From: an uncultured Bacteroidota bacterium
GTDB taxonomy: Bacteria > Bacteroidota > Bacteroidia > Chitinophagales > Chitinophagaceae
Assembly: GCA_903887415.1 (NCBI GenBank)
Contig: CAISPO010000007.1
Span: 1 to 64,000 of the forward strand
DNA: 64,000 bases
Reading direction: 5' to 3'
Part shown: positions 9,215 to 36,701 of the stretch, piece by piece
How positions within the stretch are numbered: the first letter of the stretch is position 1
How the letters are laid out: every line of letters starts with the position of its first letter
Notes under the pieces: generated by a model
The model's database searches: none
Told to the model about the DNA's origin: nothing
What the model saw: the letters and a program-made list of their open reading frames with translations, nothing else
Program-made: the position numbers and the translations under genes

Positions 9215-9300
9215 GCCCCGTAGGGAAATTCCAAAAAATAAAAATCCAAATTCCAAAATCCAGAGTCCAATTTCAATTTTAAACTTTAAAAAAAACAGTA
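9215..9300. repeat. AT-rich spacer of AAATTCCAAAA words
   Basis: The leader of metK is built of degenerate repeats of AAATTCCAAAA and AAAATCCAAATTCC. The same words recur at 27468-27535 before another gene. Noncoding. Confidence 0.5.
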
Positions 9301-9308
9301 TTCTAACA

Positions 9309-10562
9309 ATGTCGTATCTATTTACATCAGAGTCAGTATCAGAAGGGCACCCGGATAAGGTTGCCGACCAAATATCGGACGCACTCGTGGACAACTTCCT
9401 GGCGTGGGACCCACAGGCTAAGATAGCCTGCGAAACACTGGTTACTACCGGGCAGGTGGTGCTGGCAGGTGAAGTGAAATGCAAAACTTATATTGATGTG
9501 CAAACCATAGCGCGCGAGGTGATAGCTAAAATAGGCTATACCAAGAGCGAATATATGTTTGAAGCGCACTCGTGCGGTGTACTGTCTGCCATTCATGAGC
9601 AGAGCGCAGACATCAACCAGGGCGTGGAAAAAGCAAACAAAGAAGACCAGGGAGCGGGCGACCAGGGTATGATGTTTGGCTATGCCACCAACGAAACTGA
9701 CAACTATATGCCGCTGGCGCTGGACCTGGCACATAACCTGCTGCTGCAACTGGCGGCCATACGCAAGGAAGGCAAGGAGATGAAGTACCTGCGCCCTGAT
9801 GCGAAGAGCCAGGTGACCCTGGAATACAGCGATGACAACAAGCCCGTGCGCATAGACGCGATAGTTATCAGCACACAGCATGATGACTTTGCCGAAGAGA
9901 AGAAGATGCAGGCGAAGATCATGAAGGATGTGAAGGATATACTGATACCAAGGGTATTGAAGAGCTATCCGCAGCATGTGCATCTGTTCAACTCGAAAAT
10001 AAAATACCACATCAACCCAACGGGCAAGTTTGTGATAGGCGGCCCGCATGGTGATACTGGTCTTACGGGTCGTAAGATCATTGTGGACACTTATGGCGGC
10101 AAGGGCGCACACGGTGGTGGTGCATTCAGCGGTAAAGACCCAAGCAAGGTGGACCGCTCGGCTGCATATGCTACACGCCACATAGCCAAGAACCTGGTAG
10201 CTGCGGGCGTATGTGACGAGGTGCTGGTGCAGGTGTCTTACGCTATAGGCGTGGCACAGCCTATGGGCATCTATATACAAACCTATGGCACTGCCAAGGT
10301 AGATATGCACGACGGCGAGATAGCTAAGATAGTAAGCGAGGTATTTGACATGCGCCCATACTTTATAGAAGAGCGCCTGAAGCTGCGCCAGCCTATGTAT
10401 AGCGAAGCCGCAGCCTATGGCCATATGGGGCGCACACCTGAAACTGTGACCAAGGTATTCAAAAGCGCAGACGGCAAAAGCAAGACCATGAAGGTGGAAC
10501 TGTTTACGTGGGAGAAGCTGGACTATGTGAAGAAAGTGAAAGCAGCGTTTAAAATAAAATAA
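9309..10562 (+). CDS. metK: S-adenosylmethionine synthetase
   Basis: 417-aa cytoplasmic enzyme making S-adenosylmethionine from methionine and ATP. Clear family landmarks: the N-terminal [17 protein letters not shown], the [12 protein letters not shown] nucleotide-binding motif, [13 protein letters not shown], and the P-loop-like [16 protein letters not shown]. The length is normal for the Bacteroidota type, which carries a longer central insert. The ATG at 9309 begins the conserved N-terminus, and the upstream open frame is spacer repeat. No SAM-riboswitch consensus could be found in the leader. An intrinsic terminator follows at 10629. Confidence 0.97.
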
Positions 10563-10628
10563 TTCGGCAATTTGGGAATTCGACAATAGCGCGAATTATG
10601 ATTCCGAATCTGGTAAAATAATTTGAAG

Positions 10629-10650
10629 TCCCCGCTGATGCGGGGATTTT
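10629..10650 (+). terminator. intrinsic terminator after metK
   Basis: A 7-bp GC-rich stem (TCCCCGC, loop TGAT, GCGGGGA) is followed by TTTT, 67 bases after the metK stop codon. Confidence 0.8.
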
Positions 10651-10839
10651 GATTTTCGGGAATTCCACATAGTTGCGAAGTGGGGATTGAGGATTTCTGT
10701 GGACCTGAAAAAAGATTCATTTCAGAATCAACGGGTTATTTATTAATTGAAGGATGGAGCGTTGGCAAGGAATGCCGGGCATGGTTTTTTTTTGAAAGAG
10801 GAATACAAAATTATTCATTCTTTAAAAAGCCAAATTATT

Positions 10840-12201
10840 ATGACAAACCATCGTAAGCACCAGAACACAACCACGCCTGAGCGCGACTACAATGACACAG
10901 ACCGCACAACCAATGAAAGCGGCAGCAACTACGGCGAAGACACCAATGATGACTTTACGAATGACTCGCTGGGAACCGGCAAGAACACCCGTAAAAACCG
11001 CGGCGGCCAAAACGAAAGCTACGGCAACATAGGCAGCTACCAGGACAACTATGCAGGCCGCAACTATGGCTCAGGCGCCAACCGCGAATGGGACAACGAC
11101 CGCGACACAAACAACTATCGTGGATCTTCTTTTGGCGGTGGACGCGGGGAACAGGGCCGCAGGTATGAAGGCGGACAGCAGTACAACAGCAATTATGGCG
11201 GGCAGCAATATGGCGGCCGTAACAATGAAGGCCGTTTTGGCGGGGGCACCGGCTACCAAGACCGGGATTACGATAACGGCTCACAATATGGTGGCGGCCG
11301 CTATAGCCAGGGCAACGACTGGCAAAACCAGGACCGCGACAGCAATCGCAACACGGGCAATTCCGGATTTGGCCAGAGCGGCTCCCGCTACAGCAGCAAT
11401 GAACAATGGGGCAACAGTGGCAACTATGGCCAGGGTGGTAACCAATGGGGCAACAACGACAGGAACTCACAATGGCGCGACCGCGGAATGTATTCGCAGT
11501 GGAACAATGACCGCGATAGCCAGTGGGGCAACAGCGATTCACAATATGGTGGAGCTAACTATGGCCGTGGTAATTACGGAACCGGCACACAATGGGGTAA
11601 CAATGGATCCGGATCCCAGTATGGAAGCGGCAATTCCGGAAGTGGCTCCCAGTGGGGCAACAGCGGATCCGGATCCCAGTATGGAAGCGGCAGCACAGGT
11701 AGTGGCTCTCAGTGGGGCAACAGCGGCTCAGGGTCTCAATTTGGAAGCGGCAGCACCGGCTCCCAGTGGGGCAATAGCGGAAGCGGTTCACAATGGGGTA
11801 AAAGCGGCCAGGGATCGGAATATGACACTATGCATAAAGGCAAGGGACCAAAGGGTTATAAACGCTCAGACGAGCGCATACAGGAAGAAATTAACGACCG
11901 CCTCACTGACGACCCTCAACTGGACGCATCAGATATTGAAGTAACAGTAACTGGCGGAGAAGTGAAACTGAGCGGTACCGTAGAAAGCCGCCAGGCAAAA
12001 CGCCACGCAGAAGACCTAGCCGAAGCTATATCGGGCGTATCGAATGTGGAGAACAGCATTCGTGTAAAGCAAGATAAAGAAACCGGCAGCAGCACTTCTG
12101 ATAAGAGTTCAACTTCCGGCTCATCGTCAACCGGCTCATCATCATCTGCCAACAGCCATAACGGAAATGATAAAAATAAGAAGACCGGCGCTATGTCGTA
12201 A
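10840..12201 (+). CDS. Gly/Ser/Gln/Asn-repeat protein with C-terminal BON domain
   Basis: 453-aa protein with no signal peptide. Residues ~1-320 are low complexity, rich in Gly, Asn, Ser, Gln, Tyr, Arg and Asp (YGG, QWGN, DRD words), probably disordered, with a near-perfect tandem array at 11602-11800. Residues ~345-415 form a BON domain (RIQEEINDRLTDD, VTGGEVKLSGTV, AEAISGVSNVENSIRV), a small phospholipid- or surface-binding fold. A Ser-rich tail follows. Such proteins are usually stress-related, but this one lacks a visible export signal. The ATG at 10840 (MTNHRKH) is preferred over upstream alternative starts. A terminator lies at 12237. Confidence 0.75.
   Translation: MTNHRKHQNTTTPERDYNDTDRTTNESGSNYGEDTNDDFTNDSLGTGKNTRKNRGGQNESYGNIGSYQDNYAGRNYGSGANREWDNDRDTNNYRGSSFGGGRGEQGRRYEGGQQYNSNYGGQQYGGRNNEGRFGGGTGYQDRDYDNGSQYGGGRYSQGNDWQNQDRDSNRNTGNSGFGQSGSRYSSNEQWGNSGNYGQGGNQWGNNDRNSQWRDRGMYSQWNNDRDSQWGNSDSQYGGANYGRGNYGTGTQWGNNGSGSQYGSGNSGSGSQWGNSGSGSQYGSGSTGSGSQWGNSGSGSQFGSGSTGSQWGNSGSGSQWGKSGQGSEYDTMHKGKGPKGYKRSDERIQEEINDRLTDDPQLDASDIEVTVTGGEVKLSGTVESRQAKRHAEDLAEAISGVSNVENSIRVKQDKETGSSTSDKSSTSGSSSTGSSSSANSHNGNDKNKKTGAMS
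11602..11800 (+). repeat. in-gene tandem repeat, 54-60 bp units
   Basis: About three and a half imperfect units of 19, 20 and 18 codons encode NSGSGSQYGSG(S/N)(T/S)GSGSQWG-type blocks, starting at 11602, 11659, 11719 and 11773. Units differ in length by whole codons, as expected from slippage that keeps the frame. Confidence 0.8.
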
Positions 12202-27581: not shown

Positions 27582-28277
27582 CTATTTCAAAGTAACTGCT
27601 ACAGCCGGCCCTAACCGCTCCACCCACAGTGCGTATCCCTTAGGAGAAGGGTGTAAAAAATCACTCGTAAAAAGAGAGGAGTCCAGCGCCCGCTCACGCA
27701 ATATCCCCGATATATCTATGTATTGGCATTTATTGCCGAGGGCCATTTCTTTTATAGCGGTGTTGTAGGCGGCTACGTTGCGTACAATGTATGTCCGGTC
27801 TCTTCCTTTGAAATAAGGCGACTCGCTCCAGTCGGGTATGGAAAGAACAAATACCCGCTCAGTGTGTCCATTGACATATGCAATAGCTTTGGTGAGCAGT
27901 GATCCAAATTGCAGGCGATAGGCAGGGAAGTCGAGGCCACGGAGCTGGTTGTTAGACCCGATCATCAATGTTACAAAGGTAAAGGTGTCGTGGGAGCCCT
28001 TCTTTTGTACCGTATTATACAGGTCGGCCGACGTCCAGCCGGGGTACGCTATAAAAACAGGAGCCCCAACATCAAACCCCTCCTTACCCAGGTAAGCGAC
28101 AAGCTGGCTAGGGTAGTTCTCATCATACTTAACTTTATCGCCGAAAGTGAATGAGTCACCGAGAGCAAGGTACGTTAATTTGTGCGGCACCGGCTTGAAT
28201 ACATAATAAATTGCAAAAGCAATAAACAGCAGAATTATACTTAGCAATACGATATTAAACCTTTTGCTTGAATGCAT
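27582..28277 (-). CDS. membrane-anchored SGNH/GDSL hydrolase
   Basis: 231 aa with an N-terminal hydrophobic segment (residues ~9-28) that anchors or exports the enzyme. SGNH hydrolase motifs follow: GDSFTFG with the catalytic Ser, GSNNQ (block III), and DFLHPSPKG with the catalytic Asp-His. Members cleave acyl esters. Substrate unknown. It lies 10 bases downstream of a paralogous gene at 28288 and is probably in the same transcript. Confidence 0.85.
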   Translation of the reverse strand: MHSSKRFNIVLLSIILLFIAFAIYYVFKPVPHKLTYLALGDSFTFGDKVKYDENYPSQLVAYLGKEGFDVGAPVFIAYPGWTSADLYNTVQKKGSHDTFTFVTLMIGSNNQLRGLDFPAYRLQFGSLLTKAIAYVNGHTERVFVLSIPDWSESPYFKGRDRTYIVRNVAAYNTAIKEMALGNKCQYIDISGILRERALDSSLFTSDFLHPSPKGYALWVERLGPAVAVTLK

Positions 28278-28287
28278 TGTATTACTT

Positions 28288-28893
28288 TTATCCTGCTTTC
28301 AATGTTGCGGCAACAACCCCCGTAAGGCGCTCCGCCCAAACTTCATATTCCTTAGCGGAGGGGTGCAATCCGTCTCCCGCAAGAAAACCTGTGGTCATGG
28401 CATGGTCTCGTGTGCTATCCGTAATATACAGGTACTGGCATTTATGGTCGAGGGTAATTGCTTTACAGGCGGCGTTATACTCATCTATTTCTTTCGCCAC
28501 CTGCTGCCTGTCCCTGCCATCTGCATATGGCGTAGCGCCCCAATCCGGAATGGACAGCACAAATACATTATTTGCAACACCCTTGGCAAACACGATTGCC
28601 TGGTCCAGCAATTGCACGAATTCCTGCCGGTAGTTTTCCACACTCCGGCCACGGTATTGGTTGTTGACACCTATAAGCAATGTTACGAACGAGAAGGTTT
28701 CCCTTATATTATGCTCACGGATGGCAGCGGCAAGCTCATCAGTTGTCCAGCCGGTAGTGGCAATGATCACCGGGTCAGCAACGTCAAAATGCTGCTTGCG
28801 GAGCAACTGCACCGTTTGGTTGGGAAAGTTGTCGTGAATCGGGACTTGCTCACCAATAGTGTAGGAATCGCCGAGCGCTAAGTAGGAGTACAT
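28288..28893 (-). CDS. SGNH/GDSL hydrolase (paralogue of 27582-28277)
   Basis: 201 aa without a membrane segment. Motifs: GDSYTIG (Ser), GVNNQYRG, and DGLHPSAKE (Asp-His). It aligns along its whole length with the neighbouring gene (e.g. SFVTLLIGVNNQ against TFVTLMIGSNNQ, and VFVLSIPDWGATPY against VFVLSIPDWSESPY), so the two arose by tandem duplication. This copy is probably cytoplasmic and the other exported or anchored. Confidence 0.85.
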   Translation of the reverse strand: MYSYLALGDSYTIGEQVPIHDNFPNQTVQLLRKQHFDVADPVIIATTGWTTDELAAAIREHNIRETFSFVTLLIGVNNQYRGRSVENYRQEFVQLLDQAIVFAKGVANNVFVLSIPDWGATPYADGRDRQQVAKEIDEYNAACKAITLDHKCQYLYITDSTRDHAMTTGFLAGDGLHPSAKEYEVWAERLTGVVAATLKAG

Positions 28894-28954
28894 GCTATGT
28901 CAGAGATTAAAAGTAAAAATCAAAAAGCAATCATGATCAACAGCAATTTAAAAA

Positions 28955-29074
28955 TCAGATTTGCCAGCCCCTCATTATCTTTTCAACTTCATCAAGAGAA
29001 ATTCTTTCTTTAAGACGGTTATCTATCTCATCAATAAAGAGTAATGGTTTAAATAGATCATCAATGGTAAAGGT
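28955..29074 (-). pseudogene. C-terminal part of an antitoxin-like gene split by the mobile element
   Basis: The last 40 codons (TFTIDDLFKPLLFIDE..., ending MRGWQI and stop at 28955) of a 54-aa protein whose first 15 codons lie on the far side of the 5.7-kb element at 34773-34817. Joining the two at the 8-bp target duplication gives an unbroken frame (DHSPE then TFTIDD). The protein resembles the intact antitoxin at 35092-35271: same MT-E, P-F-D-L and E-K-W pattern. It was the third cistron of that toxin-antitoxin operon. Confidence 0.85.
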
Positions 29075-29082
29075 CTCAGGCG
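29075..29082. repeat. left target site duplication (CTCAGGCG)
   Basis: Eight bases directly outside the left inverted repeat, repeated exactly at 34773-34780 outside the right one. Confidence 0.9.
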
Positions 29083-29119
29083 GGTAGTCCGTCAGTTTGA
29101 AAGTTAAAGTTTTTTAACA
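29083..29119 (+). repeat. left terminal inverted repeat
   Basis: Starts GGTAGTCCGTCAGTTTGAAA. The first 27 bases are the exact reverse complement of 34746-34772. Ten further bases match with one difference (T against A at the 28th position). Confidence 0.95.
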
Positions 29120-29155
29120 CGGAGGGCGAAGATAAAAAGTCAGTAGTTTTGATGA

Positions 29156-29314
29156 ATGGCAAAAACAACCCGTCCGTATCGACCCAAAGATACAAATCAA
29201 TTAGCAAAATATATCGTTGAACTTTCAACAGGCGAACGAGAAGAAGTTTATGAAGATAAACCTCTATCTACCGTCAAAACTCCGAAAAAGAAAAAAATAC
29301 CGAAGAAGGATTAG
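29156..29314 (+). CDS. 52-aa basic protein at the left end of the element
   Basis: Small ORF from the ATG at 29156. It begins MAKTTRPYRPKDTNQLAKYI, continues VELSTGEREEVYEDKP, and ends in a Lys-rich tail (KTPKKKKIPKKD). The RPKDxNQLAKxIVxxxTGE core resembles, from memory, a widespread family of short basic proteins of unknown function. It lies 37 bases inside the left inverted repeat and its stop codon abuts the end of the convergent restriction-modification gene. A DNA-binding or transposition role is only a guess from charge and position. Confidence 0.6.
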   Translation: MAKTTRPYRPKDTNQLAKYIVELSTGEREEVYEDKPLSTVKTPKKKKIPKKD

Positions 29315-32300
29315 CTACAACGTGTAGGCTAAGTCTATTTCTTGCATTATCCTGTCCGTTTCCACTAATGCGGAAATGATTTTTTGGTAGTGCTTAACAT
29401 CCTCGTAACTCAATTCCTTTTCTTTTCGGTCTTTAAGCCACTTCTGAGCAGGTTGATACCCACCTATATAAATGTCCCATGCCAACTGCGGCACGTTTGC
29501 AAAATATTGGGTTTCGTTTATGTAAACTCTATCCCCCTTATAAATTAGCTTGCTCACAATGTTATCGCCATCAACCGAATATCTCGTAGCGGTCTTCAAT
29601 GTTGGGCTTTCCAATAAATGTACCCGTCTTAACTCGCCTCCCAATTTTACCAATTCCCAAAATACCGTAACGTCTTTAGGATATGGTATGCGAGGAAAAT
29701 CTATCTTCAAAAACTCCTTGTATGTTTTCCTATAAGTTGGGGAATGCAGTACCGCATAGATGTAGTCTAAAAGGTCTATTGGCGCAAAGGTGTTTTTAGC
29801 TGATTCCTTTTCTTCAATAAACGGGATGCCTATCTTTTCGGAAAATTGAACGACTGTTTTTTTGTTTAGATTGGGTATTCTTTTATCGTTACCACTAAGT
29901 TCAATCTCTCCTGAATTTTCCGCGTATAAATACAATGGGAAAATATATCCTCGTTCTTTTGTTCTATTTGATATTCTCGAATCATCGGCAATAAATTTCG
30001 TTATACCGACATGCTCCCAATTATTAATTGCAATTTGTCGGCATGTCATTAACCCTATATTATCGCCCTTAATAAAATGCTGCATAACATCTAATCGCCA
30101 ACGCCAAATTAACTTGTTATCAAAATATGTCCATTGCTCATCAAACGGGCGATAATCAATCTTCGTAAATTTTGTGTCGTCAATTTTGATAGTAGATTTG
30201 TTTTTTAAAATCCATTCAGCATAATTTTTACCGAGTCCAAATTCTTTCTTTAGCCAATCTTCGGTTACATCATTTTCCATGAAGTATTTTAATCTTTCCT
30301 CAAGGACATTTTTGTTTTCAGCTACAATAAAACCATCCCCATAGTTACAATTCCTGTAACACTCTTTATGAAAAGTTCATTAACTGAAAAACCTAATTCA
30401 TATTCACTTTGCCCATTAAAATCTTTAGGAACAAAGAAGTAATTTGGATGACTATATGTCAACTCTTTGAATTGTATATCGGCTATCTTTTTTTCTTCCA
30501 AAAATGAATACTTCATTTCTCTTTTCCCGAATAAATCGCAATGAAATATTTTACCTAACTCCGTGTCTTTTTTTATTCCTGTTTTAATAAAGATATTAAT
30601 TGAAACGCCTTGCATTATATCAAACACATTTTGGTCTACGCTCCCATCTTCCGCAGTTTCGCTTTTCTTAGTATTGCCATGTAAATCAAGTGTATAAATC
30701 TTATCGAAGGCTTTTAGCAAATTCCATCGCATACCCCTGAAAGTAGTGTTATCTAAAAACCCATGCGGATTAATGAAAGCCAATATTCCGCTACCGTTTT
30801 TTTCGATAAAATATTGTCCTAATCTTATGAATTTCACATAGTCGTCATTCAACCAATGTTTCTGCTCGTTGAAATGTTCCCCATTGGTGTATTTATATTC
30901 ATCAATTAGAGCATCTATCCAATTGTTTTTATTGTACGAAATCCCGCTATAAGGAGGATTGCCCATAACTACCATAACAGGTATATCCCTCTTTATATAG
31001 TTAGCCTCGTTAGCTTCCCTACTTAGCATATTCGCAAATAAGTTACCCGTATCTGGGTGATGCTTTTCTAAAGAATTTGTAAGATAAACTCTTAGTCGTT
31101 GTTCATTCTTGGGCTTATATCCCGTTTGGGTAAGCAGCAGGTCTAATTTTAAGTGAGCCATCGCATAGCTTGCCATAAGCAACTCAAACCCATTTATTCT
31201 TGGCAATAAATGCGTTTCGACATAGTTACTCCATGCCCCTCGTTGTTCTTCAAAATTTCTATTTATATGCTTTATTACTTCCGCTAAAAACGTACCAGTA
31301 CCCGTTGCAGGGTCTAATATTTGAACTTTATGAACCGAAACTTTCTGTTCGCTATCTTTAAGTTTTGAGCGTTGGTCTGATGTTGCTTTTGATTTGGCTG
31401 CAATCTTTATTTCTATCTTTTCTGTGTTAGCTAACCCCCCATCAAGGCTAAACTCACCTTTCAGAATATCGTCTACGGCATTTACTATAAATTTCACAAC
31501 CGATTCCGGCGTATACCATACACCTCTGCTTTTCCTAAGCTTCGGGTCATACTCCGACAAGAATGTTTCATAGAAATAAATAATCGGGTCTTTTTGTTGA
31601 TTTGTATTGTCGAAATTTTTAAGCAATGCTTTTACATCTGTTGCTCTAAAAATATCCACTAAGGCATTTACCACCCACGAAATTCTTTTGTCTAAATCAA
31701 TACCCGCGATATGGTCAAACAGGTTCCTTAAAAAAGGGTTCGTTTTGGGGATTAACTCTGCCGCTTCCCTACGTGTAAAAGTTTCCAATGACGGGTCATG
31801 CAATCGAGCAGAAAACATACCGTAAGCGATAGTTTGCGCGTATATGTCAGAAAATTGTTTTGTAGTTAAATCATGTATCAAAATTTGTTGAAAACCCTTT
31901 AATTGGTCATTTAAAGTGCTGTCGCTATCATGCTTAATATCGAATATCAAAGAGTGATAAATCACATCTGCTAATACCCTTGCATTATTAGCCATTAATT
32001 TAGCAAGGCTTTCAGGCGACTTAATTGTTTGACCTGATACTATTGAATAACTCTTGAGAATTGTTTCAAATGAAGTAAAATGTTCAGGCTGCGCAATAAT
32101 CTTATTCCCTACTTTTTCCCCGATAGAATAGGTAGCAACCAACTCCGTGTACTCATAAAATTCAAAATCAAGGTAGTTAGTGATTATCAACTTTGGCAAC
32201 GTCTTATACCTATCAAACTGCTCCTTATAATTCTTGTTACTCAGGTCTGTTGCTAATATTTTCGTTTCAATGTAACAAACAGGAATGTCCCCATTGGTAA

Positions 32301-32469
32301 GAATATAATCAGGCGCACCAATGTCTTGATGCTTAGGCTCATTTATCACGGTTACTTCGGGAATAATACTTTTTATTAGATTTTGAAGATGCCCCCTGTA
32401 ACTATGCTCTGTGGTTCTACCCGTTTTATTATCGTGGTTAATTTCTGATAGATATTCTTGTATGGTCAT
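29315..32469 (-). pseudogene. Type IIG/ISP-like restriction-modification enzyme, frameshifted
   Basis: Read from the ATG at 32469, this is a ~1,051-aa single-chain enzyme interrupted after ~715 residues. N-terminus: a PD-(D/E)XK-like nuclease (GAPDYIL, then VCYIETK; Asp54, Glu68, Lys70). Middle: an N6-adenine methylase with GVWYTPESVVKF (~316), motif I DPATGTGTF (386-394) and motif IV NPPYS (504-508). The C-terminus (DYRPFDEQWTYFDN, FPRIPYPKD, GGYQPAQKWL) looks like the target-recognition region of Type ISP/IIG enzymes, but there is no helicase. A missing base in the four-C run at 30337-30340 (plus strand) causes the frameshift; adding one base continues as MGDGFIVAENKNVLEERLKY. Defence against foreign DNA is inferred. 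Confidence 0.85.
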
Positions 32470-32592
32470 GGGTATTGTTCGTGTGTCAGTAAAAATATAC
32501 AAATAATTACATTCCAGCGATGTAATTATATCCACAAATAAATAGGGCGGGATTGTTAGTCCCGCCCTTAAATCACCCATGCTCTTGTATCG

Positions 32593-32772
32593 CTACGTTA
32601 TAAACAGCTTGAGCGTACCATTGTTGTCCTGAAAGGCAATGTGAACGGTTTTAGCATCCATATTAACATAGGCTCTGCCCGTTTTGTCAATAATTTCTAC
32701 CCGTATTACCGTTGGCAATAATTCAAACTTTGAATACTTGAACGGCTGTTCGTCCTTTGTTTCTTTTTCCAT
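32593..32772 (-). CDS. 59-aa hypothetical protein in the element
   Basis: Small protein from the ATG at 32772, beginning MEKETKDEQPFKYSKFELLP and then a beta-rich run (TVIRVEIIDKTGRAYVNMD, TVHIAFQDNNGTLKLFIT). It lies 11 bases downstream of the 153-aa gene and ~120 bases upstream of the restriction-modification gene, all leftward. Function unknown. The alternating pattern suggests a small beta barrel. Confidence 0.6.
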   Translation of the reverse strand: MEKETKDEQPFKYSKFELLPTVIRVEIIDKTGRAYVNMDAKTVHIAFQDNNGTLKLFIT

Positions 32773-32783
32773 TGTTTTGTGTT

Positions 32784-33245
32784 TTAAAGATGTTCAATTA
32801 GTTTTTGATATTCATCAGGCATAAGAAGCCCTTGCACCCTGAATATTTTCCCGTCCTTCACCCGTGTTCGTAAGAAAATATCTTTCTCGGGAGTTGGTAT
32901 CCAACAGATTTCTATCAGCCGTTTTTCATTCGGGAATATGATGCGCCTATCATGCGGCGGGTGCAATAAAACGGACGGGTACGCAATGCTACCATCGCGT
33001 ATCAACGCCATTTCAGCGGATACTTTTACACCCTCTTTTTTCATCAAGGCGAACGTTTGATACAGATACCCGAGGTAACGCCAATCGTTGCTCAAACCTC
33101 TCGCGGGATAACCGCTTGCATACCTGAAATGAAAGTACGGGTGAACAAGAAACGTGATGGGCTTTACGTCCAACCTGTTTAGTGCTTTTACGTAGGCCGC
33201 TACGACCTTCTTTGCTGTTTCGATTTGTTGTTGTATTGGTGTCAT
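32784..33245 (-). CDS. 153-aa hypothetical protein in the element, possibly NTF2-like
   Basis: Starts MTPIQQQIETAKKVVAAYVK. The N-terminal helix followed by ALNRLDVKPITFLVHPYFHFRY and later strands (AYPSVLLHPP, RLIEICWIPT) resembles a SnoaL/NTF2-like cone-shaped fold. Not recognised as a named family. It is 11 bases downstream of the SF0329 gene and in the same leftward run that leads to the restriction-modification gene. A role alongside the enzyme is possible but unsupported. Confidence 0.55.
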   Translation of the reverse strand: MTPIQQQIETAKKVVAAYVKALNRLDVKPITFLVHPYFHFRYASGYPARGLSNDWRYLGYLYQTFALMKKEGVKVSAEMALIRDGSIAYPSVLLHPPHDRRIIFPNEKRLIEICWIPTPEKDIFLRTRVKDGKIFRVQGLLMPDEYQKLIEHL

Positions 33246-33256
33246 GGCTTTTTGTT

Positions 33257-33763
33257 TTATTCTTGTGGTGTAAATCTTACGTTCATAATAATTTCAACCT
33301 GTGGCGTATCGCTCTTTGCAGCCCATATGTATAACTTTTGCTTGCCCACACGCCTATCCGCAGTCTTGAAAATATCAGTCAGGGATTTAACTACTTCCAT
33401 GTCTGATTGGTTCGTGTATGTTTTTTCAGGATGCCCTTTTCGCCTTGGTGTATGCTTGAATGATTTGAACTCACCTTTGAATTCCTTCTCCAACAGTTCG
33501 GCAACAGGCGTATCAATGTACTCACGCACTAACGCTGATATGCCGTTGCGGTTACACCACTCGCTGCTCATCGGTTCTACCTCGAAGTCTTTTGGAAAGT
33601 CCCAAATAATGTCTTTGCCTATCTTGACATAAAACCTCGGTATGGAACGTGTCGCATAGCCGTTCTTTGGTCGCATCGGATATGCGCTGCAACAAAATTG
33701 CATATCCAATCTCTGGTCAAATAATTTCTCAATCTCCTTTTTTAACTTGCTGAATTTGCTCAT
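33257..33763 (-). CDS. SF0329-like family protein in the element
   Basis: 168-aa cytoplasmic protein. The opening MSKFSKLKKEIEKLFDQRLD and the SIPRFYVKIGKDIIWDFPKD segment resemble what I recall of the SF0329 family, a poorly characterised group found in Bacteroidota and Gammaproteobacteria. The C-terminus is beta-rich (KLYIWAAKSDTPQVEIIMNV). It lies 6 bases downstream of the 99-aa gene and 11 upstream of the 153-aa gene. Function unknown. Confidence 0.6.
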   Translation of the reverse strand: MSKFSKLKKEIEKLFDQRLDMQFCCSAYPMRPKNGYATRSIPRFYVKIGKDIIWDFPKDFEVEPMSSEWCNRNGISALVREYIDTPVAELLEKEFKGEFKSFKHTPRRKGHPEKTYTNQSDMEVVKSLTDIFKTADRRVGKQKLYIWAAKSDTPQVEIIMNVRFTPQE

Positions 33764-33769
33764 GATTTT

Positions 33770-34069
33770 TTAGTGTTTTAATGGTACTCGGTTATTAATA
33801 TTAGTCATTGGTACTCGGTAAAAGTTGAAGTATTGCGTCACGCTACCGCCCTCTTGTTCTATGATATCAATATGCGTTGTCCCTTTTGGTAATGCAGGGA
33901 AAAACAAGGTGAAATGAAGTTGCTCATGCTTGTTCCTGAAAAAATATTTAGCAGGGGCAATCGGTATATTGTGTGCCAAAATCAAACCGAATTTTTCCTC
34001 CGTCCCACATGGTCTGATGAAAATATTCGGCTGTAATTGCACCCACCAACCACGGTTATATTTTATCAC
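33770..34069 (-). CDS. 99-aa hypothetical protein in the element
   Basis: Starts at a GTG (34069); no in-frame ATG is available before an upstream stop. The translation contains KHEQLHFTLFFPALPKGTTH and IDIIEQEGG, a pattern that I recall from exported or stress-related Bacteroidota proteins, here without a signal peptide. It heads a five-gene leftward run ending in the restriction-modification gene, so it may be the first gene of that transcript. Function unknown. Confidence 0.5.
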   Translation of the reverse strand: MIKYNRGWWVQLQPNIFIRPCGTEEKFGLILAHNIPIAPAKYFFRNKHEQLHFTLFFPALPKGTTHIDIIEQEGGSVTQYFNFYRVPMTNINNRVPLKH

Positions 34070-34119
34070 GTTTGGAGTAGTTATGCAGTTTAAGCATTAC
34101 TACAAGATAAAAATATTGT

Positions 34120-34127
34120 TACTTTTG
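34120..34127 (+). promoter_or_regulatory. -7 promoter box TACTTTTG
   Basis: Exact TAnnTTTG match 22 bases upstream of the rightward 100-aa gene; it lies between divergent genes inside the element. Confidence 0.45.
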
Positions 34128-34149
34128 AAAGTAGCCAAAACACGCAAGT

Positions 34150-34452
34150 ATGCCCACGCTTACATACAAAGACGTAGAAGATAGAATACGCGCAATCGTT
34201 CAAAAATCATCTAAATTCAAGATTGGTGAAACAAGCCAAACTAAAGAAGCAAGATTATCTCAGCACTCAACATTTTCTAAAATTGAAGTCGTAGCTACTT
34301 CTAAATACAAGAAACGCATTGATGAATGTGAAGGAGCAATGCTTAAAATATTCAAAGACCACCCAAAATGTTCAAACGAAAAAGAAGGCAGCGCAGGTAA
34401 AATGACTACTACTGACACCTACCTTCTTTATGTAGTGTACAATCCAAAATAA
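34150..34452 (+). CDS. 100-aa hypothetical protein, weakly GIY-YIG-like
   Basis: The only small gene in this half of the element that is read rightward. It begins MPTLTYKDVEDRIRAIVQ and contains FKIGETSQTKEARLSQH, reminiscent of the second motif of GIY-YIG nucleases, but the GIY and YIG tyrosines are not clear. The rest is basic and mixed alpha/beta, ending TYLLYVVYNPK. A nuclease role fits the setting but is weakly supported. A -7 promoter box lies just upstream. Confidence 0.45.
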   Translation: MPTLTYKDVEDRIRAIVQKSSKFKIGETSQTKEARLSQHSTFSKIEVVATSKYKKRIDECEGAMLKIFKDHPKCSNEKEGSAGKMTTTDTYLLYVVYNPK

Positions 34453-34458
34453 ACTCCA

Positions 34459-34656
34459 CTAACATTCGTCAAGCAATGGCTCATTGGGGTCTATTGCAAA
34501 GTAGTGTTTTATGAGGTACTTTATTTCAAGTATCTTATCCAATACAGGCGCATCTAAATTAGTGACCCTGCGAATTTCATCAACTAACTGTTCTCTTGTT
34601 AGAGTGGTCGTTTCAGTCTCTCTCTCTGAAAACCATACCATCTTATTATCGTCCAT
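34459..34656 (-). CDS. 65-aa hypothetical protein in the element
   Basis: Small acidic protein from the ATG at 34656, opening MDDNKMVWFSERETETTTLT, with a helical centre (REQLVDEIRRVTNL, VLDKILEIKYLIKHYF). The pattern is antitoxin-like in size and charge but has no recognised DNA-binding motif. Convergent with the rightward 100-aa gene, 6 bases away. It is the gene nearest the right inverted repeat. Confidence 0.5.
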   Translation of the reverse strand: MDDNKMVWFSERETETTTLTREQLVDEIRRVTNLDAPVLDKILEIKYLIKHYFAIDPNEPLLDEC

Positions 34657-34735
34657 ACACTCTGTTTTTATTATTTGATATTAAAACCCTGCCATTGGGT
34701 GAAATGAAAATTACATGGCTAAAAGACGTGAACGT

Positions 34736-34772
34736 TGTTAAAAATCTTTAACTTTCAAACTGACGGACTACC
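34736..34772 (-). repeat. right terminal inverted repeat
   Basis: Reverse complement of the left repeat: 27 bases exact (34746-34772) and ten more with one mismatch. Confidence 0.95.
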
Positions 34773-34780
34773 CTCAGGCG
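34773..34780. repeat. right target site duplication (CTCAGGCG)
   Basis: Identical to 29075-29082. It forms part of the interrupted reading frame. Confidence 0.9.
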
Positions 34781-34817
34781 AATGATCAACTATATCGATA
34801 AGAATTTCTTTTGTCAT
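34773..34817 (-). pseudogene. N-terminal part of the antitoxin-like gene split by the mobile element
   Basis: Fifteen codons from the ATG at 34817 (MTKEILIDIVDHSPE) up to the element. The ATG overlaps the TGA of the upstream toxin gene (ATGA), the usual arrangement of translationally coupled genes. The remainder is at 28955-29074. Together they make 54 codons plus stop without any frame change. Confidence 0.85.
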
Positions 34818-35104
34818 AAAATCATTTGAAATTCCGTGATGAGTGAACAATCCTGTATATTCATTATACGGACGCCCGATATTTTGTACATTATTCTGTA
34901 ACTCCCTTCTATCAACTCTCTAATACTTTGATCATTTCTCTCTGGAACTACCCTTCCAAGATGGGGATGAGTAATAAGAATTGTAGTCCTTTCATATACT
35001 TGTTTCAACCATTTCTCCGCATGGTTCTTTGAATCAAGGGCTATGTATCTAAAAATAAGATCGGCATCGGTAAGGGCGCGGGCAGACCAAACTATTTCAT
35101 CCAT
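34814..35104 (-). CDS. RelE/ParE family toxin
   Basis: 96-aa protein of the RelE/ParE fold: VWSARALTDADLIFRYIALD, then HAEKWLKQVYERTTILITHP, GRVVPERNDQSIRELIEGSY and RIMYKISG, in the usual order. ParE-type toxins poison DNA gyrase and RelE types cut mRNA; which applies is unclear. It begins inside the 3' end of the antitoxin gene (13-base overlap) and ends by overlapping the start of the broken second antitoxin-like gene (34817). Coupled translation of the three is expected. Confidence 0.88.
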   Translation of the reverse strand: MDEIVWSARALTDADLIFRYIALDSKNHAEKWLKQVYERTTILITHPHLGRVVPERNDQSIRELIEGSYRIMYKISGVRIMNIQDCSLITEFQMIL

Positions 35105-35271
35105 TCGTCAAACATCTTTTTTGCTTCCGAATGAGGTATAACTCTGCCTTCCTCAACATCTTTTTCTGCCTCTTCTATTTTACCCAGTACAATTAAACGC
35201 TCAACCAACTCATCGACGTTGAAGTTATGCGGCATGCTTTTAACTGTTTCAATAGCTCTTTCTTGTGTCAT
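35092..35271 (-). CDS. antitoxin partner of the RelE/ParE toxin
   Basis: 59 aa from the ATG at 35271: MTQERAIETVKSMPHNFNVD, then ELVERLIVLGKIEEAEKDVE and HSEAKKMFDEWMK. Size, acidity and the C-terminal amphipathic SEAKKMFDEW helix match the short antitoxins paired with ParE-type toxins. It overlaps the toxin start by 13 bases. A TAACTTTG -7 box (plus-strand CAAAGTTA at 35303-35310) lies just upstream on the same strand. Its remaining paralogue is the gene split by the element. Confidence 0.8.
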   Translation of the reverse strand: MTQERAIETVKSMPHNFNVDELVERLIVLGKIEEAEKDVEEGRVIPHSEAKKMFDEWMK

Positions 35272-35302
35272 AATACTTCAATTAATATACAGAAACGTCT
35301 TA

Positions 35303-35310
35303 CAAAGTTA
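35303..35310 (-). promoter_or_regulatory. -7 box of the toxin-antitoxin operon
   Basis: On the - strand reads TAACTTTG, an exact TAnnTTTG match, 31 bases upstream of the antitoxin start codon. No -33 TTTG at the right distance. Confidence 0.45.
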
Positions 35311-35327
35311 CATTTTTTTCTTTTCTA

Positions 35328-36701
35328 TCACTTCACATAAACTGTCTTTATGTTCACAAACTCATGTATGCCAAAACTGCCCAATTCCCTGCCATAGCCG
35401 CTTTGCTTAGTTCCACCAAAAGGCAGATGCGGATCGGAATGGACAAAATCGTTTACAAAGCAGCTACCCGCCTGCAGCTCATCAGCGGCCAGTTTTTCGG
35501 CCCTTCCCCTGTTCCTGGATATAATGCCGCCACCAAGACCATAAATGCTATCATTAGCGATCCGTATTGCGTCTTTTTCATCTTTTGCTTCAATGATGGC
35601 AGCCACCGGGCCGAACAATTCATCGTCATAGGCCGGCATCCCCTTCTTCACTTTCGTAAGCACAGTAGGCGGGTAAAACGCACCAGGGACTTCTGGTATA
35701 AATCCGCCACATAATACCTTAGCGCCTTTTTCAACGCTTTTTAATACCTGATCATGAAGTTGATCGCGCAGGTCAATCCTCGCCATGGGGCCTATCCTGC
35801 TTTTTTCGTCCATGGGGTCGCCGTAAGTAGCCTGCTTCATTTGTTCGGTATAGCGCTCCACGAATTCTTTATATACCTCTTTTACAACCACAAAACGCTT
35901 TGCCGCGATGCAGCTTTGCCCGCTATTTACCAGCCGCCCGCGGATGGCTATTGCTACAGCCAAGTCAAGATCGGCATCCGCGAGTATCACGTATGCATCG
36001 CTACCGCCCAATTCCAAGACTTGTTTCTTCAGGTTGCGCCCGGCGGCTTCCGCCACCTTGCTGCCCGCTGCTGTACTGCCAGTGAGCGTAACTGCCGAGA
36101 TTCGTGGATCATCGATCAGCTTTTCAACCCGTGAAGATGGTATCAGCAATGTTTGCAACAGCCCTTTCGGAGCGCCCGCTTTTAGTATGAGTTTCTCTAT
36201 CGCCAGCGCACAGCCGCTTACATTAGAAGCATGCTTCAGAATGATCACATTGCCTGCCATTGCAGTAGGAGCCATAGCGCGGAATACCTGCCAGTAAGGA
36301 AAGTTCCATGGCATAATGGCCAGCACCACACCTAATGGCTGATAAGAGACGTAGCTCTTGCGGGCATCGGTTTTCACCACCTCATCCGCCAGGAATTTAG
36401 CGCCATTTGCTGCATAAAACTCCAGGGTCGCAGCACATTTTTCCACTTCATAATACCCCTGCGATATGGGCTTTCCCATTTCCATCACCGCAAGTTTTAC
36501 CAGCCTGTCTTTTTCTTTCCTTATTTCTTTCGCGATATTCTTTAAAACGACAGCCCTTTTGCTAAACGACAACTGCCGCCATTCTTCAAAGGTCTTCCGT
36601 GATTGTTTCATGGCTTGCTCAACTCTTTTCTCATCATGTATTTCGTAAGAGGCGATCTCTTTTCCTGTGGTGGGATTGACGGATATTAAACGGTCTGACA
36701 T
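35328..36701 (-). CDS. NAD(P)-dependent aldehyde dehydrogenase, succinate-semialdehyde type
   Basis: 457-aa cytoplasmic enzyme of the ALDH superfamily. The catalytic Cys264 is in NSGQSCIAAKR and the general-base Glu230 in VLELGGSDAYV. The Rossmann part contains PWNFPYWQVFRAM and LTGSTAAGSKV. Sequence style and length (no N-terminal extension) fit the short succinate-semialdehyde dehydrogenase group (GabD-like), which oxidises succinate semialdehyde to succinate. Substrate cannot be proved from sequence. It is divergent from the phosphohexomutase gene with 111 bases between. Confidence 0.85.
   Translation of the reverse strand: MSDRLISVNPTTGKEIASYEIHDEKRVEQAMKQSRKTFEEWRQLSFSKRAVVLKNIAKEIRKEKDRLVKLAVMEMGKPISQGYYEVEKCAATLEFYAANGAKFLADEVVKTDARKSYVSYQPLGVVLAIMPWNFPYWQVFRAMAPTAMAGNVIILKHASNVSGCALAIEKLILKAGAPKGLLQTLLIPSSRVEKLIDDPRISAVTLTGSTAAGSKVAEAAGRNLKKQVLELGGSDAYVILADADLDLAVAIAIRGRLVNSGQSCIAAKRFVVVKEVYKEFVERYTEQMKQATYGDPMDEKSRIGPMARIDLRDQLHDQVLKSVEKGAKVLCGGFIPEVPGAFYPPTVLTKVKKGMPAYDDELFGPVAAIIEAKDEKDAIRIANDSIYGLGGGIISRNRGRAEKLAADELQAGSCFVNDFVHSDPHLPFGGTKQSGYGRELGSFGIHEFVNIKTVYVK

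Follow-up and report, generated by a model that had tools for sequence, protein, structure and literature searches.

How a unit with the ends and target duplication of a transposable element can move when it encodes no recognisable transposase is the question raised by the window, the whole 64,000-nucleotide stretch analysed here (contig CAISPO010000007.1 of an uncultured Bacteroidota bacterium of the Chitinophagaceae). The element in question occupies 29083-34772 (5,690 bp, with borders exact to the base), and the comparisons support the view of an earlier note on this DNA, made from the letters alone, that it is a complete, apparently recent insertion. Very probably it is a mobile insertion cassette, a non-autonomous unit with cargo that belongs to a group of IS1-family transposons, its transposase gene having been lost or replaced and its movement being effected in trans. 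Its ends, its 8-bp duplication and the small gene inside its left end are of the kind seen in elements bearing an IS1 transposase, a contig carrying an IS1-type transposase holds relatives of two of its passenger genes, and transposase-less short forms with these ends and 8-bp duplications exist.

Borders and coding content of the element

The terminal inverted repeats lie at 29083-29119 (plus strand, starting with GGTAGTCCGTCAGTTTGAAAGTTAAAG; the same end type is found in IS1-type elements of relatives) and at 34736-34772 (minus strand), the latter located by an inverted-repeat search and an end search. The inverted-repeat search returned the arms that the earlier note had read, perfect over 27 bp and extending to 37 bp with one mismatch, and these are the longest inverted pair in 28000-36000, the runner-up having 24 nt at 75%; the 38-nt arms given by the tool each include one flanking base. 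Directly outside both ends, as had been noted, stand two copies of the 8-bp target site duplication CTCAGGCG (29075-29082 and 34773-34780), read from the letters. The G+C content is 37.5% within the element and 45.8% across the remaining window. Within the window's genome the 27-bp end was matched twice exactly and once with three mismatches, the last on contig C53. A composite transposon was considered and rejected, no two flanking insertion sequence (IS) copies being present and only the 37-bp ends standing at both borders.

Nine candidate genes were chosen from the open reading frames (ORFs) of at least 50 aa, and two of them are parts of one restriction-modification (R-M) gene, which leaves the eight cargo genes counted earlier. 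At the E-value limits used, no model of a transposase, recombinase or integrase in Pfam, PADLOC, PHROGs or NCBIfam was matched by any of the nine candidate ORFs, and tblastn of the IS1-type transposase of a relative against the window gave no match at 1e-5; the lack of a transposase reported in the earlier note was thus borne out in four profile libraries and by tblastn.

Transposase-bearing relatives with the same kind of ends

The window's genome and 98 relatives (99 genomes) were searched. The 27-bp end, at up to three mismatches, was present in six of the 99, namely the window's genome and five of the same genus. In G031 (locus L010, 2323-7585) two such ends lie 5,263 bp apart with GTAAAATT on both sides, and a gene between them matches PF03400 (IS1 transposase); this protein, used as a query, was matched in seven genomes at an E-value of 1e-20 (the window's and six of the same genus). 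Both ends and an IS1-type transposase are also found in L026 (3,588 bp, duplication GGATATTT) and L028 (3,785 bp, duplication TAGCAGTT), both with 8-bp duplications, while L029 has both ends 4,094 bp in extent with flanks agreeing at six of eight bases, L031 is a 1,268-bp form with both ends, a transposase remnant and the duplication CCCATTTC, and L027 and L030 are truncated by contig ends. The short form in G015 (377 bp, 8-bp duplication GGCTTTTG) holds neither transposase nor small gene. G022 carries a 299-aa transposase ORF and one end identical to that of the window over 27 bp; a second end was not found on its contig. The further copies with different 8-bp duplications, and the full-length relatives with a transposase that would name the family, for which the earlier note had called, were found in the same genus and also in other phyla, and the family they name is IS1.

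Named genomes were also scanned with the degenerate end GGTAGTNNNTCAGTTTGAANRTTA, which gave 49 stretches from several phyla, all of which were examined. Ten hold an end pair with flanks matching at no fewer than six of eight bases, two of these (L047 and L061) being genus genomes already read; the remaining 39 are mostly single ends, some of them halves of elements already read and some possibly due to chance. Among the ten are a Rhodothermales element (L035; 2,819 bp, duplication AGTGGTTG) and one of Candidatus Glomeribacter (L039, 1376-6485; 5,110 bp, duplication ACCTTATA) with its transposase in pieces. On plasmids, the transposase resident in the window's genome matched 17 records, with coverage of at least 80% of the protein in five. 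Four records were opened. Three of these hold an element with both ends and a perfect 8-bp duplication, of 2,634 bp in Acidiphilium, 4,224 bp in Hoeflea and 3,370 bp in Mesorhizobium loti; in the fourth, from Methylocapsa, the ends are present and the flanks do not match.

Assignment of the transposases to the IS1 family

All three cognate transposases tested passed the PF03400 (DDE_Tnp_IS1) cut-off of 24.1 bits, with 28.3, 31.5 and 34.0 bits, and NF033558 (IS1) was the best NCBIfam match of both transposases tested against that library, though below its curated cut-off. Of the five long plasmid matches (coverage of 80% or more), four are annotated 'IS1 family transposase'. In an alignment of 12 transposases (304 columns), D66, D139 and E206 are invariant and would be the catalytic residues. 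A weak helix-turn-helix (HTH) match was seen only in the G022 protein, of two scanned whole, and the transposase ORF of L010 is without its first ~48 residues. The AlphaFold model of the transposase was too poor for use (mean predicted local distance difference test score, pLDDT, 45), and a search of solved structures with the transposase profile gave no match at E-values up to 0.1. From these profile matches the cognate transposases appear to belong to the IS1 family. The element in the window encodes no such transposase itself, and is hence filed as a derivative and not as an IS.

Possible source of a transposase in trans

The window's genome contains one transposase match, a 299-aa ORF on contig C39 with D66, D139 and E206 kept. 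An end at C39:4172 is followed by GTAAAATT, an end at C53:864 is bordered by the complement of GTAAAATT, and both contigs start inside an element. The genes at these two starts resemble two neighbouring genes of G022 (37% and 42% identity). The genome therefore probably harbours a seemingly complete relative that bears the transposase, split between C39 and C53. The end of G022 is nearer to the ends in the window than are those on C39 and C53. Elements that bear a transposase and share this kind of end are present both in the genus and in the window's own genome, and for that reason movement in trans, which the earlier note had put forward, is the best reading.

GTAAAATT borders two elements that stand beside different genes (L010 2323-7585, and C39/C53), by chance or through a target preference. 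A third element of the group in the window's genome (L112 5783, i.e. G000:C41:52782) has one end and a small protein of ~78 aa and runs off its contig.

The small gene inside the left end

A 52-aa protein is encoded at 29156-29314 (plus strand); the family to which it belongs occurs in IS1-type cargo transposons, within one of their ends. Its relatives in other elements likewise lie inside one end, mostly 60-300 bp from it, and share their strand with the transposase in L010, L026, L028-L031, L035, L039, L045, L080-L084 and L113. When 80 ends were scanned for the protein motif, a match within 900 bp was found at 20, of which 17 look genuine and three (the left ends of L010 and L035, and L070) were judged to be chance; the 60 ends without a motif match include transposase-side ends, short gene-free forms, ends at contig edges and many single ends. 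A motif scan also found members in all four plasmid elements fetched, where tblastn of the L026 small protein against plasmids gave no match at 1e-5.

The link between gene and end was also tested independently of the ends, using a profile (A1) of 20 small-protein members on 395 genomes of the window's phylum. Eight places were found in six genomes, three of them in the window's own (the window, C53 and C41), and at seven an end lies upstream with no mismatch at 16 fixed positions, the eighth being cut by a contig end; without the members of the profile (the window, C53 and G431, which is the same element as L035), an end is present at four of five places. A second profile search covered 289 genomes of the class of G498 (a record named Alphaproteobacteria UBA1002) and gave 34 places in 29 genomes, with loci for 30. 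Here 17 of the 22 near-full-length places (one a profile member) have an end at up to two mismatches within 600 bp upstream; three of the other five have a transposase match in the locus and two (L129 and L134) have neither. At the eight weaker or partial places an end was found at four, and one of the other four, L149, part of a longer frame, stands opposite to a transposase. By our own arithmetic, ~0.2% of random 600-bp stretches would hold an end at up to three mismatches.

In front of the gene, the candidate -7 box TAGTTTTG (29144-29151, plus strand) lies 4 nt before the start codon and fits TAnnTTTG, which we take to be the Bacteroidota -7 box consensus. In 16 hand-chosen sequences compared from end to start codon, TAnnTTTG stands 4-5 nt before the ATG in 10 of 11 from Bacteroidota (the window included, L029 being the exception), and the five others have TATAAT, TATACT, CATACT or CATAAT 5-6 nt before it. 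Such boxes directly before the ATG suggest that the end region contains a promoter and that the message is leaderless. Neither Pfam nor NCBIfam gave a match for the 52-aa protein or for two other members tested; one relative (M. loti) is annotated 'histone H1', and the profile searched against solved structures gave weak hits only (best 0.06; ribosomal L29 at 0.12-0.58). Among four genus members, differences in the 17-codon core were 0.20, 0.14 and 0.52 at codon positions 1, 2 and 3, a comparison that is biased because the core was located by its protein motif.

The 52-aa ORF thus looks like a conserved component of this transposon group, not random cargo. Of the earlier suggestion of an unrecognised mobility protein, the part that survives is that a protein family is tied to these ends; it is not a transposase. 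A broader proposal is made tentatively, and we lean slightly away from it: a widespread, undescribed group of IS1-family cargo transposons would possess a dedicated leaderless small gene inside one end, whose protein (N-terminal RPxDxNQLAKxIVDxATGE, and in many a basic C-terminal part) would act as an accessory in transposition or in establishment; elements such as that in the window would keep the small gene and borrow only the transposase. Were this true, the small gene would be a marker for finding transposase-less elements with defence genes and other cargo.

The interrupted target gene

Joining the flanks over one copy of CTCAGGCG gives an uninterrupted frame of 54 codons on the minus strand, in agreement with the earlier note; its 3′ part is at 28955-29082 and its 5′ part at 34781-34817. 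Relatives of the 54-aa frame (33-53% identity) occur in 12 of the 98 other genomes, and all 16 relative places listed span the insertion junction, none with an internal stop; an interrupted gene is supported by these, though they are possibly paralogues. A ParE-type gene (PF05016) with a short upstream partner (34814-35271) adjoins the insertion, and by eye the interrupted gene resembles that partner.

Passenger genes

The R-M gene lies on the minus strand in two parts, a 5′ part with the N6-methylase (30322-32580; profile matches and tblastn of relatives) and a type IIG/ISP-like 3′ part with the specificity domain PF18135 (29315-30280; profile matches), and its protein matches one type IIG model as two pieces (model positions 1 to ~500 and beyond, and 754-1073 of 1096). 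At an E-value of 1e-100 the long piece was matched in seven of the 99 genomes, which are the window's own and six that do not belong to its family. Three of the eight relative places listed contain at least one internal stop. By tblastn both pieces fall in one frame in seven of seven relative loci (L100, with two stops, was excluded), and two relative loci have open frames of 1,120 and 1,056 codons. Near 30280-30324 the gene in the window shifts frame once, through either decay or an error of assembly. Relatives have it unsplit in a single frame, and the copy in the window is therefore probably inactive. The 'defence cassette' of the earlier note accordingly stands as to the presence of an R-M gene and not as to its integrity.

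The possibility that the R-M relatives are members of the same transposon group was rejected, because no end with up to three mismatches (at 16 fixed positions) was found in the 2.6-5.2 kb fetched around the eight homologues; one end-like site with four mismatches in L100 was taken as chance. The R-M gene was therefore probably captured separately. A second, unrelated R-M cargo in the transposon group was seen in L039, where an N6-methylase accompanies a type I-like specificity protein.

Two further passengers on the minus strand, the 153-aa protein p153 (32784-33245) and a 168-aa SF0329-family protein (33257-33763), have relatives of 71% and 65% identity, respectively, on the same contig of G033, which carries an IS1-type transposase; for the SF0329 protein this is the sole relative among the 98 other genomes. 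The remaining passenger ORFs are of 59 aa (32593-32772, minus strand; weak match to a PHROG of unknown function), 99 aa (33770-34069, minus strand; no family match), 65 aa (34459-34656, minus strand; no family match) and 100 aa (34150-34452, plus strand; sub-threshold T5orf172/MUG113, GIY-YIG-like match). The last sits toward the end where related elements carry the transposase, and on the same strand as there; its structure model was too poor for use (mean pLDDT 51), and it gave no match to solved structures at E-values up to 1.

Other features of the group were recorded in passing. Two Chitinophaga genomes contain forms of 199-225 bp with these ends (L032, L041, L058, L063, L069 and L073), likely a family of miniature inverted-repeat transposable elements; the flanks of L032 and L073 do not match, and those of L032 are reverse complements of each other. 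In L026, L029, L113, L083 and L084, proteins of ~160-215 aa (P63C in L026) and ~370-430 aa (HTH and/or weak-to-strong M78, IrrE-like, matches in four of five, that of L113 being without a Pfam match) are encoded between the small gene and the transposase, and this pair may be an ancestral core. Genes for collagen-like lipoproteins recur as passengers on transposase contigs in three genus genomes (L013, L017 and L010). The element of G353 (L115) has other insertion-sequence genes inside and its partner end was not found; positions 9295-11787 of locus L115 show a long regular repeat array that reads as repeated peptides, with cas-like genes alongside by eye, and that is probably a CRISPR array.

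Proposed origin and alternative explanations

The element would descend from one bearing an IS1 transposase whose gene was lost or replaced, and its insertion into the 54-codon gene would be the work of a transposase acting in trans, provided by the resident C39 copy or, nearer in end sequence, by a G022-like element then present. The transposase would bind both ends and cut or copy the 5.7-kb unit, which would be joined to a staggered 8-bp cut in the target, repair giving rise to the duplication. The left-end small gene is probably transcribed from a promoter immediately within the end, and may help or regulate the transposon.

Several observations weigh against this account. No movement has been observed, and the exact empty site is missing: the joined flank (313 nt) searched against 35 genus genomes matched only the window's own two flanks, so that the intact site expected in the earlier note was absent from the genus genomes other than the window's (34). 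Compared with the ends in the window, the resident ones have other bases at positions 7, 8, 9 and 20 (C39) and 7, 9 and 20 (C53), so the C39 transposase may not act on them. The contig of G033 shows no end, and its SF0329 and p153 relatives stand in another order. The NF033558 scores, 67.2 and 61.4 bits for the two transposases tested, are below the curated cut-off of 100. A table of 23 end pairs shows a perfect 8-bp duplication in 15, agreement at 6-7 of eight bases in five and at four of eight in three. This count is descriptive and no test, since a script had picked 19 of the pairs for matching flanks; among the four that had not passed through this filter, one duplication is perfect and the flanks of three do not match. 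Shuffled pairings were left out of account, as some true partners stay together in them.

It is unlikely that the element arrived autonomous and had its transposase gene deleted in place after insertion. The broken R-M gene, by which decay may have begun, and the passengers shared with a transposase-bearing contig would fit such a course, but neither the 27-bp ends nor the duplication has lost its perfect match, and no transposase remnant was found in the element by the four profile libraries or by tblastn at 1e-5. Distinctly less probable again is that the element encodes a mobility enzyme of its own that has escaped recognition, such as the 100-aa GIY-YIG-like or the 52-aa ORF, and can do without a transposase from elsewhere. 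The position and strand of the former and the association of the latter family with these ends speak for it; however, members of the 52-aa family also occur in elements that have a transposase, and seven short forms (128-490 bp) with such ends and flanks agreeing at 7-8 of eight bases show no small-protein motif match. The GIY-YIG-like match is below its cut-off, its structure model being of no use, and we know of no GIY-YIG nuclease that produces 8-bp target duplications with terminal repeats.

The IS1595-like ends that the earlier note had offered as one possibility fared worst, and we give them hardly any credence. Duplications of 8 bp are likewise produced by IS1595 elements, which can have passenger genes, and NF033547 (IS1595) does match the C39 protein, but at 19.8 bits against a cut-off of 75, with no match listed for the G022 protein, whereas the IS1 models score better, the PF03400 cut-off is passed and most of the long plasmid matches are annotated as IS1; membership of IS1595 is not supported. 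The preferred reading, an IS1-ended cassette moved in trans, extends mobile insertion cassettes to IS1-type ends. It also means that passenger genes, including R-M genes in two unrelated elements (in the window and in Candidatus Glomeribacter), can be carried with or without a working transposase, and the conserved small gene at one end becomes a testable hallmark for such elements across phyla.

Comparison with known systems

The single-ORF members of IS1 are ~0.7-1.2 kb long. The relatives described here resemble them in the PF03400-matching transposase, in ends starting GGT and in the 8-bp duplication, and differ in that the complete transposase-bearing elements are 2.6-5.3 kb, with passenger genes and the conserved small gene. 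As far as the available part of the report goes, IS1 of E. coli makes target duplications of 8-10 bp, IS1 has brought an R-M plasmid into the chromosome, and R-M genes have moved with insertion sequences including IS1 (PMC3031569). In the cases given there a whole plasmid was joined to IS1 or IS5 copies; in the window the R-M gene is internal cargo of a single unit.

Insertion sequences that carry passenger genes are termed transporter insertion sequences (tIS) in the accessible portions of two accounts (PMC9330008, PMC7986276). The transposase-bearing relatives fit that definition as given there, and the element in the window differs in being without a transposase. Among the leading results of the open-licence literature, no IS1-family tIS was found, which does not exclude ISfinder entries or other papers, and neither IS1-family cargo elements nor the small gene were described, ISfinder being outside this scope.

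Mobile insertion cassettes, by contrast, are elements without a transposase gene that are mobilised in trans by a cognate IS, as in MIC231 of Bacillus cereus and the mic with qnrD in Proteeae, on the parts available of the two sources (PMC3913671, PMC3129680). To judge from those parts, the element in the window shares with them inverted repeats, a target duplication and passenger genes in place of the transposase gene. Its cognate transposase-bearing relatives also share its ends, with one identical 27-bp end in G022 and near-identical ends on both sides in L010. The known cassettes are smaller than its 5.7-kb unit, and MIC231 belongs to IS231 (IS4 family), unlike which the present element has IS1-family ends and keeps a conserved small gene at the left end. 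The element in the window is most plausibly a mobile insertion cassette, here with IS1-type ends.

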